A stretch of 37,025 nt of DNA. Origin: Thioalkalivibrio sp. (GTDB taxonomy: Bacteria; Pseudomonadota; Gammaproteobacteria; Ectothiorhodospirales; Ectothiorhodospiraceae). The stretch lies in NCBI GenBank assembly GCA_007116035.1, contig SKJG01000146.1:1-37025 (forward strand). The letters are read 5' to 3'. The translations under genes and the position numbers were made by a program. Numbering within the stretch: position 1 is the first letter of the stretch; the number at the start of each line of letters is the position of its first letter. Below the pieces are notes generated by a model. It was not told the DNA's origin, searched no databases, and saw only the letters and a list, made by a program, of their open reading frames with translations. This document shows positions 7,700 to 11,012 of the stretch, in pieces.

Positions 7700-7729
7700 A
7701 CTGCCGATGATATCGTGAATCGCGGCAGT
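7700..7729. promoter_or_regulatory. Inverted repeat in the DUF456/LDH divergent region
   Basis: ACTGCCG (7700-7706) and CGGCAGT (7723-7729) form a perfect 7-bp dyad immediately upstream of the DUF456 start. It could be an operator or a leader hairpin; no regulator is known for it. Confidence 0.25.
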
Positions 7730-7871
7730 GCCTGGCACCCCGGCATCCCGGTCCGGCTTGAACAACGCCTGCCTGACCGCGAAACTGGGACCGTCGAACC
7801 CCTCGATCACGGCGACGTTCACCAGGGTTGAAGCAACGCGCCACCCCGACGTCCAAAACAGGAGCAGTGTC

Positions 7872-8816
7872 ATGGCAAGATCCGCGGTGGGCATCATCGG
7901 TACTGGCCATGTGGGCGTAGCGGCGGCCTACGCCATGTTCCAGCGTCAGCTTGCGAGCGAGATCATTCTGGTGGACAAGAACCATCAGCGGGCGGAGGGC
8001 GAGGCCATGGACCTGATGCACGGCCAGCCCCTGGTAGGCCGCGTATCCGTTCGCGCCGGGGACTACGAGCATCTCGCCCATTGCCAGGTCATCGTGATCA
8101 CCGCCGGCGTGAACCAGAAACCGGGGGAATCGCGCCTCGACCTGCTGAACCGCAACGCGGCGGTCTTCCGGGAGATTGCCGAGGAACTCGATCGCCACGC
8201 CCCCGAGGCCATCCTCGTCATCGCGACCAATCCGGTCGACATCCTGACCTACGTGATGCAGCAGCTCAGCCATCGCGCGCCGCGCCGGGTGATCGGCACG
8301 GGCACCATGCTCGACACCTCCCGCTTTCGCGCACTCCTGGGAGACAGCTACGAGGTCAACCCCCGCTCGGTGCACGCCTACATCCTCGGTGAGCACGGTG
8401 ACTCGGAGGTGCCGATCTGGAGCAGCGCCATGATCGGCGGCCTGTCGATCATGCACCACGTGATCAACGGACGGCGTTTCGAGCACGAACCCATGGACGC
8501 GCTGTTCCAGCGCGTTCGCAGTGCCGCCTTCGACATCATTTCCCGCAAGGGCTACACGAATACCGCGATCGGCCTGGTCATTGCCTACGTGGTCCGGGTG
8601 ATCCTCGAAGACCAGCGCAGTGTGCTGCCCGTATCCGTGAACCCCGAGGGCGATTACGGTCAGCGCGACGTGTGCTTCAGCGTACCCTGTGTCGTGGGAG
8701 CGCACGGCGTGGAGTACCGCCTTCCCCCGGAAGCCAACGAGGCCGAGCGGGCGGGGCTAGAGTCCTCCGCCGAGATCCTTCGCAAGAGCCTGCAAGGGAT
8801 GACCATCGTGCCTTAG
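7872..8816 (+). CDS. ldh: L-lactate dehydrogenase (NAD-dependent)
   Basis: Predicted 314-residue cytosolic enzyme interconverting pyruvate and L-lactate with NADH/NAD+. The N-terminal Rossmann motif GTGHVG lies near residues 9-14. The active-site loop reads NQKPGESRLD with Gln at 82, where lactate dehydrogenases carry Gln and malate dehydrogenases Arg; R88 follows. Substrate Arg lies in LDTSRFRALL and catalytic His175 in GEHGDSEVP. The ATG at 7872 has AGGAGC about 8 bases upstream; an in-frame ATG at 7728 would add an unrelated extension. A residual chance remains that its true substrate is another 2-oxoacid. Confidence 0.92.
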   Translation: MARSAVGIIGTGHVGVAAAYAMFQRQLASEIILVDKNHQRAEGEAMDLMHGQPLVGRVSVRAGDYEHLAHCQVIVITAGVNQKPGESRLDLLNRNAAVFREIAEELDRHAPEAILVIATNPVDILTYVMQQLSHRAPRRVIGTGTMLDTSRFRALLGDSYEVNPRSVHAYILGEHGDSEVPIWSSAMIGGLSIMHHVINGRRFEHEPMDALFQRVRSAAFDIISRKGYTNTAIGLVIAYVVRVILEDQRSVLPVSVNPEGDYGQRDVCFSVPCVVGAHGVEYRLPPEANEAERAGLESSAEILRKSLQGMTIVP

Positions 8817-9003
8817 GCAGCAGGCCGAGGGCGCGTGTGGCCACCGGTCCGAGGACGCAGCAAGGCATAGCCCGGACCGCATGGGCCGGAAAGGCGTACG
8901 CAGTGAATGCGAGAGAGGCAGACATCGGGTTCGTAGTTCTACCCATCGAACAGCAAAGTCGACTAAGTGCCTGTCCACCCGTCGCGACGGCGCCTGCAGA
9001 CGG

Positions 9004-9215
9004 TTATGCACAAGGTTCGTGCCAACGCGGAAAAATGCGAGTTAGCCTTCATTTCTTCTCGCCATCCACATGAAAAAATCGCATCTATTTGTTTTTGATG
9101 CACAAATGAAGATTGAACGTTTTTTGACCAGTCCGACATAAGTCCTTTCAGGACAGGAGACTGGGGACAGGAGGCAAGTTCTTTCCACAGACTTATCCAC
9201 AGCTTTTGTGGATAA
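9004..9215. promoter_or_regulatory. DnaA-box cluster with AT-rich tract (oriC-like or DnaA-titration site)
   Basis: Within the 469-base gene-free stretch 8817-9285 I see exact TTATNCACA DnaA boxes at 9004-9012 (TTATGCACA), 9193-9201 (TTATCCACA) and, inverted, 9207-9215. Weaker matches are TGATGCACA at 9096-9104 (one mismatch), CCATCCACA at 9062-9070 and CTTTCCACA at 9181-9189 (two each). Between them, about 9032-9128 is conspicuously AT-rich for this genome. CATCTATTTGTTT at 9082-9094 matches the E. coli oriC L 13-mer at 11 of 13 positions. That is an origin-like arrangement. Usual origin neighbours (dnaA, gyrB, gidA, parAB, rpmH) are absent, so a DnaA-titration or reactivation locus is equally possible. 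Confidence 0.5.
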
Positions 9216-9220
9216 GTCTG
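9188..9220. repeat. Perfect 14-bp inverted repeat of two DnaA boxes
   Basis: CAGACTTATCCACA (9188-9201) and TGTGGATAAGTCTG (9207-9220) are exact reverse complements around a 5-base spacer (GCTTT). The symmetry extends 5 bases beyond the DnaA consensus on each side, so it is more than two boxes meeting by chance. Confidence 0.8.
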
Positions 9221-9258
9221 CCACCTCCCGAAGGCCCTCTGTTTTTTCCTAAGGGTGT

Positions 9259-9287
9259 AAAAACCCCCCAGTGGGGCATGGCCCACT
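9259..9287 (-). terminator. Probable glnS terminator
   Basis: On the minus strand, directly from the glnS stop, AGTGGGC-CAT-GCCCCACT forms a stem with one bulge. A G-run and TTTTT (complement of 9259-9263) follow. Position and form suit an intrinsic terminator, though the G-run between stem and U-tract is atypical. Confidence 0.4.
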
Positions 9288-10968
9288 AGCTTCTGGCAGA
9301 GAGCTTGGCCCAGGTATCACGGAGAGTGATGGTGCGGTTGAAGACCAGTCGCTCCGGGGCGCTATCTCTGCTGTCTACGCAGAAGTAGCCCTCGCGCTCG
9401 AACTGAAAGCTTGCGCCCGCGGATGCCCCGGAAAGCATGGGCTCCACCACGGCCTGCAGGATGATCAGCGACTCCGGGTTCAGGTCGTCCCGCCAGTCGT
9501 GATCCCTGACCGCACCCGGGTTCGGAACCGTGAACAGGCGATCGTACAGCCGGACTTCGGCGGGAACGCCGTGACTCGCCGAGACCCAGTGAATCACCCC
9601 CTTCACCTTGCGGCCTTCCGGGTTGGCGCCCAGAGTCGCCGGATCGTAGCTGCAGCGCAGTTCGACGACATCGCCGGCTTCGTTCTTGATCGCCCGGTCG
9701 CAGCGGATGACATAGGCGTTGCGCAGGCGCACCTCGCCGCCGAGCGCGAGCCGTTTGTACTTGTTGTTGGGCGCGACTTCCATGAAGTCGTTCCGGTCGA
9801 TATACACTTCGCGGGTGAAGGGGATCAGGCGACTGCCCATGGCCTCGTCCTTGGGATGGTTCGCCGCGACCGCTTCTTCCACCTGTCCTTCCGGGTAATT
9901 CTCGATCACGACCTTCAGCGGATTGAGCACCGCCATCGCGCGCGGCGCGGTGGCGTCGAGCGCTTCCCGGACCGAGTTTTCCAGCAGCGCCATCTCGACC
10001 ATGCCGTCGGACTTGGTCACGCCGATCCGGTCACAGAAATCCTGCACCGCTTCCGGCGGGTAGCCGCGCCGGCGAATGGCCGCGATGGTGGGCATGCGCG
10101 GGTCGTCCCAGCCCTGCACGTGGCCTTCCGCGACCAGCTCGGTCAACTTGCGCTTGCTCAGTACGGTGTATTCGAGGTTGAGGCGGCCGAACTCGTATTG
10201 CCGCGGCTGTGCCGGAACGTCCAGATTCTCCAGGAACCAGTTGTACAGCGGCCGATGGTCCTCGAACTCGAGCGTGCACAACGAGTGCGTGATGCCTTCC
10301 AGCGCGTCGGAGAGGGTGTGGGTATAGTCGTACATCGGATAGATCGGCCACGCCTCGCCGGTCTGGTGATGCACGGCGCCGCGACGGATCCGGTAAAGCG
10401 TGGGGTCGCGCAGGTTGATGTTCGGCGACGCCATGTCGATTTTTGCGCGCAGCACGCGCGCGCCATCCTCGAACTCGCCGGCACGCATGCGCCGGAACAG
10501 ATCCAGGTTCTCCTCCACCGAGCGTTCCCGGAAGGGACTGTCGCGACCCGCCTCGGTGAGGGTGCCGCGGTAGTCGCGCATCTGCTCGGCGCCGAGATCG
10601 CACACGTAAGCCTTGCCGGCGCGAATCAGGTCCTCGGCAAAGCCGTACAGCGGCTCGAAGTAGTCGGAGGCGAAAAACAGCTCGGTCCAACGGTAGCCAA
10701 GCCAGCGCACGTCTTCCTTGATCGCCTCGATGTATTCGACGTTTTCCTTCTCGGGGTTGGTATCGTCGAAGCGCAGATTGCAGGTGCCGCCATAGTCCTG
10801 TGCGATACCGAAGTTGAGACAGATCGACTTGGCATGCCCCAGGTGCAGGTAGCCGTTCGGCTCCGGCGGAAAACGGGTGGCGACGCGGCCGGCGTTGCGG
10901 CCGCTTTTGAGGTCTTCGTCGATGATCTGGCGGATGAAGTTGCTGGCCGCCGCTTCGTTGTTGCTCAT
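9286..10968 (-). CDS. glnS: Glutaminyl-tRNA synthetase
   Basis: Predicted 560-residue class I aminoacyl-tRNA synthetase charging tRNA-Gln. The HIGH motif appears in [14 protein letters not shown] (about 30-43), and KMSKR is represented by VLSKRKL. Conserved [10 protein letters not shown] and a C-terminal two-barrel anticodon-binding region are present. Length matches E. coli GlnRS (554). The start [11 protein letters not shown] at 10968 is preferred over an ATG 36 bases upstream because it fits the family N-terminus and sits 45 bases after a perfect -10 box. A true GlnRS implies direct Gln charging, as in gamma- and betaproteobacteria. Confidence 0.97.
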
Positions 10969-11012
10969 GCAGTGCAGTCTTTGTCGCAGGGCCCGGACGG
11001 GCAAGTGCCGGC

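Follow-up and report, generated by a model that had tools for sequence, protein, structure and literature searches.

The window analyzed here, a 37-kb stretch of DNA from a Thioalkalivibrio draft genome, carries a cluster of DnaA boxes in the intergenic region between two convergent genes, ldh (L-lactate dehydrogenase; 7728 to 8816, + strand) and glnS (glutamine--tRNA ligase; 9286 to 11004, − strand). Exact copies of TTATNCACA occur at 9004 (+), 9193 (+), and 9207 (−) and nowhere else in the window. This number compares with an expectation of 0.17, and three or more copies were reached in 1 of 100 shuffles. A preliminary description of the sequence had named these boxes, the last of them as inverted, together with weaker ones at 9062, 9096, and 9181. 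All are present, the weaker ones with two mismatches (CCATCCACA, read by eye), one mismatch, and two mismatches, respectively.

Three of the boxes form a core. Box II (TTATCCACA; 9193 to 9201, + strand), which is exact, stands head-to-head with box I (TTATCCACA; 9207 to 9215, − strand) at an offset of +14 bp, while the weak box III (CTTTCCACA; 9181 to 9189, + strand) lies at an offset of −12 bp from box II. Boxes II and I are contained in the arms (9188 to 9201 and 9207 to 9220) of a perfect 14-bp inverted repeat that spans 9188 to 9220. The remaining exact box, which we call the distal box (TTATGCACA; 9004 to 9012, + strand), is located 189 bp 5' of box II and shares the orientation of boxes II and III. 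Between the distal box and the core, there is a Fis-type 15-mer (GAACGTTTTTTGACC; 9115 to 9129) at −78 from box II, which agrees with the Fis consensus pattern GNNYRNNWNNYRNNC at 7/7 positions and is one position off the stricter consensus, GnnYAnnnnnTRnnC, found in passages of PMC4245941. Farther out is a degenerate IHF-type site (CATCTATTTGTTT; 9082 to 9094, − strand), at −111 from box II, with a 7/9 match to YAANNNNTTGATW. This is the 13-mer of the preliminary description, and it does end one base short of the weak box at 9096.

Besides the box palindrome, the only repeat reported between 8800 and 9300 is a weak 16-nt inverted pair (75 percent; 9063 to 9078 and 9242 to 9257, 163 nt apart), which is probably due to chance. 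An RNA gene was ruled out, since the window had no Rfam family at the gathering score and a search for tRNA found none.

Core geometry and recurrence across the class

The geometry of the core is that of the DnaA-reactivating sequences (DARS) of Escherichia coli. All three boxes are found, with box I opposed and with the offsets of 14 and 12 bp that characterize the cores of DARS1 and DARS2. Likewise, passages of PMC5742627 describe the same box spacing in DARS1 and DARS2, with box I opposed to boxes II and III. When we scanned the E. coli oriC, datA, and priA regions, the three-box DARS core was not found.

The preliminary description had proposed a comparison with related genomes, and this revealed that the pairing of the distal box with box II recurs widely. 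A pattern for a same-strand pair at 187 to 195 bp, TTATNCACA-N178..186-TTATCCACAG, was present in 167 of 369 gammaproteobacterial genomes, which corresponds to 144 of 314 when only good genomes are counted and to 126 of 271 genera. With a control spacing (gap of 138 to 146), the count was 4 of 369, and the reversed pattern returned nothing throughout the 369. The exact pattern was absent from 202 of the 369 genomes, which counts against a DARS-type reading. In a sample of the phylum, 29 of 398 genomes contained the pair; by a hand count from the table, 23 of these were among the 137 genomes of the class and 6 among the 261 genomes from other classes. Two of the six out-of-class matches were inspected (L280 and L281), and box I was not within two mismatches in either. 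Among eight later matches from the phylum sample (L280 to L287; six within the class and two outside, none belonging to the collection described below), box III was recognized with at most two mismatches in six and box I in none. The failure of box I in these loci also counts against a DARS-type reading, and our confidence was set slightly lower.

For the class, we assembled 106 distinct elements from 45 families, defined as loci having TT(A/G)TNCACA and TTATCCACAG at 187 to 195 bp. Boxes I and III were not part of this search pattern, which was built from the distal box and box II, and they therefore constitute independent evidence. With up to two mismatches allowed, box III was found at offset −12 in 102 of the 106 elements and box I at offset +14 in 95, while the other offsets scanned gave 0 to 3 percent. 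A full match to the Fis pattern occurred at −77 to −79 in 61 elements versus 0 to 1 at nine shifted offsets, and shuffling the surrounding 50 bp produced a mean of 1.4 such matches (largest, 6 in 200 runs). When the threshold was relaxed to at least 6/7, the count rose to 85 elements versus 1 to 10 at shifted offsets. At −109 to −112, 81 elements had a match of at least 7/9 to the IHF consensus, versus 0 to 5 at nine shifted offsets, and 23 of the 106 had the exact consensus. The preliminary description had taken the 13-mer to be part of a duplex-unwinding element, but given these counts it is better read as the position of an IHF site. Box III, box I, and the Fis-type and IHF-type positions were all present in 64 of 106 elements. 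When one element was drawn at random from each of the 45 families, the mean counts were 35 for Fis, 39 for IHF, 42 for box III, 40 for box I, and 30 for all four. Consensus matches at −78 and −111 thus recur across families and mark candidate Fis and IHF sites beside the core, the IHF match of the window itself being 7/9.

Five priA-linked copies within the genus (L026, L027, L033, L035, and L136) retain the core and the Fis-type and IHF-type positions and have no distal box at one mismatch or fewer, which indicates that the distal box is not indispensable. Separately, two rimO-linked copies (L134 and L137, from G029 and G026) keep the 189-bp pair, have an odd base composition, and contain a box I that is unrecognizable by eye.

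Copies, neighbors, and relationships

The draft genome, which is in 186 contigs, contains 13 exact boxes and three same-strand pairs that are 189 to 191 bp apart: the window copy (contig C111), a copy adjoining priA (C14), and a copy adjoining rimO (C37). A fourth copy (C177), with its distal box TTGTGCACA 191 bp away, follows a gene for a UbiH-like FAD oxidoreductase. These four are exactly the matches obtained when the genome was scanned with a pattern of the three core boxes that tolerated at most two mismatches. A recent duplication was among the readings rejected: positions 9002 to 9155 of the window are 73 percent identical to the priA copy of the same genome. The rimO and UbiH-like copies of this genome match 4/9 and 5/9 at the IHF position. 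Also encoded in the genome is a homologue of Fis, 54 percent identical over 69 residues. The core scan was applied to 11 genomes of 8 genera, which were selected for being mostly complete and were already known to carry the box pair. It yielded 27 cores, with four in the draft genome and either two or three in every one of the 10 relatives; the reversed core pattern, used as a control, had no match in the same 11 genomes.

The most common neighbor is priA, which adjoins 44 of the 106 elements in 25 families. Every one of these 44 elements is upstream of priA with its core facing the gene, and the 10 rimO-linked elements, likewise upstream without exception, have the distal box turned toward rimO. 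A UbiH-like gene accounts for another 4 and the ldh-glnS interval of the window for 1, leaving 47 elsewhere. For 46 loci without these marker genes, open reading frames were grouped by similarity and one representative per group was named by Pfam. In this manner, we identified a HemW/HemN-type gene at 8 loci, metG with an apbC/mrp-type gene at 7, rsmA and pdxA at 6, aroE at 5, and a polA-type exonuclease at 4. The IHF-type position was kept in 2 of 10 rimO-linked and 0 of 4 UbiH-like-linked copies, and this, too, counts against a DARS-type reading.

The copy beside glnS was also found in G018, G014, and L049, the last with an element identical to that of G018. These copies end in TTATCCACAA and therefore fall outside the 106 elements. 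A scan of the 79 remaining named glnS loci, several of them of partial length, did not find the glnS copy. A tree of 27 copies, which has long branches and several weak forks, placed the four glnS copies in one supported group and united the UbiH-like copies with support as well. The priA copies were not united in a single group; nested among them were the groups of glnS and metG copies.

Some features of genomic placement deserve mention in their own right. On the main chromosomes of G010, G012, G029, and G034, with contigs taken as circular, the priA element is on one arm and the rimO element on the other, 0.24 to 0.42 Mb from dnaA (4/4), an arrangement that gene order alone could produce. 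Elements also occur in tandem, about 270 to 380 bp apart, upstream of priA in L046 (G041:C15, 1042 to 1505) and in G340:C167 (7529 to 8095) and G267:C209 (4950 to 5527). Finally, a DARS-type core sits near position 2500 of a plasmid-sized contig of 240 kb (L135; G029:C2). At −65 this core has the Fis-like palindrome GATCAAATTTTGATC, and no distal box was seen within the scanned range.

Known DnaA sites and alternative explanations

In E. coli, we take DARS1 to lie at bioD-uvrB, DARS2 at mutH, and datA beside the glyVXY tRNAs; the positions used for all three were checked by box geometry or by IHF match. With DARS2, the window element has in common the core offsets and orientation, matches for IHF and Fis, and one exact DnaA box set apart from the core by about 200 bp. 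However, DARS2 runs from the core to IHF (−99/−83), Fis (−137), and an inverted distal box (−197), whereas the window element runs from the core to Fis (−78), IHF (−111), and a distal box (−189) with the same orientation as box II, and thus has neither the core-IHF-Fis order nor the spacing of E. coli. Nor is it seated beside mutH, being found between ldh and glnS here and at priA, rimO, and other genes elsewhere, and its genome carries four copies. DARS1 (L179) is identical in core geometry and also has a 7/9 IHF-like match at −111 from box II, which may be due to chance, but it has no Fis match at −78 and its nearest distal box-like sequence, TTATCCCCA, is at −209. The IHF-like match and TTATCCCCA hint that DARS1 could have arisen from the element by decay, although this resemblance, too, may be fortuitous.

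An argument can be made that the element serves as a datA-like or titration site, where DnaA bound together with IHF would be inactivated or sequestered and not reactivated. Such a role would fit the strength of the boxes, the IHF-type site, and the presence of several copies in a genome, and datA likewise has a full IHF consensus between DnaA boxes. We nevertheless consider this explanation unlikely. At datA, an IHF site is flanked by strong boxes, and there is no DARS core: the 12/14 three-box arrangement is missing, the spacing is different, and the scanned region gave no full Fis match, whereas the core in the window has DARS geometry. It is also conceivable that the element originated as a promoter element of priA, a gene of replication restart, under the control of DnaA, Fis, and IHF, and was then copied to other sites. 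The uniform upstream position of the priA-linked and rimO-linked elements would be in keeping with this history, as would the nesting of glnS and metG copies among priA copies in the tree. Yet the orientation toward priA is opposite to that toward rimO, and the neighbors at other loci differ (HemW-type, metG/apbC, aroE/rsmA/pdxA, and polA). Furthermore, the window copy lies between converging genes, so that a promoter of a flanking gene was ruled out for it and a chromosomal site is indicated instead. For these reasons, we view a priA promoter as quite improbable.

The two other explanations have far less in their favor. The preliminary description had raised the possibility that the chromosomal origin moved to this region, with the 13-mer as its unwinding element. 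DnaA boxes, an AT-rich stretch, and an IHF-type site are indeed reminiscent of oriC, and in E. coli oriC has IHF and Fis sites. But in the complete relative G012, which alone stands in for the draft genome, the cumulative GC skew (40 samples of 20 kb, with two short gaps between them) has a shallow minimum from about 3.7 Mb to 0.05 Mb that includes dnaA (position 482), whereas the three elements of that genome are at 0.424, 2.466, and 3.514 Mb, positions that the minimum does not span. In the draft genome, dnaA is on a different contig from the window, and among 14 genomes in which dnaA was mapped, no listed element was at dnaA, the nearest being about 84 kb off (G345). In addition, the draft genome has four elements, each of the 11 genomes scanned for cores has between two and four, and the E. 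coli oriC region is without such a core. On the skew of G012 and the copy number of the element, we reject a displaced origin and assign this reading almost no probability. A remnant of a mobile element or plasmid origin is scarcely more credible. It would account for the core on the 240-kb second contig of G029 and for matches to plasmid DNA over 31 to 47 bp, but among the 20 of 41 matching records listed, these matches were confined to the surroundings of the core and extended over no more than 15 percent of the query. The element contains no genes, the same gene hosts copies across different species and families, and the position at priA is stably inherited across families in the sampled loci. 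Phage origin was ruled out because the phage collection had no match. The other proposal of the preliminary description, a DARS-like site, is the one that gains support from the core geometry, the fixed Fis-type and IHF-type positions, and the conservation across the class.

A candidate role in DnaA reactivation

Our comparisons suggest that positions 9004 to 9215 are, with reasonable likelihood, a DARS-type element. It has the core of a DARS and probably functions as one, and it is not a copy of DARS2. Passages of PMC5742627, PMC4245941, and PMC8682772 describe how, in E. coli, ADP-DnaA paired on the DARS core loses its ADP, after which apo-DnaA binds ATP, and passages of PMC4245941 (Kasho 2014) describe a requirement of DARS2 for IHF and Fis. 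By analogy, we infer that the element would reactivate DnaA as follows. ADP-DnaA would sit head-to-head on boxes I and II with help from box III, while IHF and Fis would bend the 190-bp arm such that the distal box, with its own DnaA, meets the core; the distal box may serve to load the complex or to regulate it. Release of ADP would then allow apo-DnaA to leave and be recharged with ATP, and the resulting ATP-DnaA would favor initiation at the dnaA-proximal origin.

In the passages available from PMC4245941, PMC8682772, and PMC5742627, DARS are reported for E. coli and for beta- and gammaproteobacteria close to it, such as Vibrio cholerae and Shewanella. Among the titles and abstracts listed in searches of an open-access library, we found nothing on such an element at priA, nor on DARS far from E. 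coli. More speculatively, and with distinctly less confidence than we place in the DARS-type reading itself, the element may represent an ancient, class-wide means of DnaA reactivation in the Gammaproteobacteria that consists of a distal box, IHF, Fis, and a three-box core, spread over an arm whose length is fixed at about 18 helical turns. Its old seat in front of priA might couple the recharging of the initiator with replication restart, and DARS1 and DARS2 might be relocated and rearranged descendants.

If the element is a DARS, then the recharging of the initiator at a DNA site would be an old and general feature of the Gammaproteobacteria. Its layout could be found with a simple pattern, in several copies per chromosome and with a preferred seat by the gene of the restart helicase, and the origin and geometry of the mechanism would become testable through comparison.
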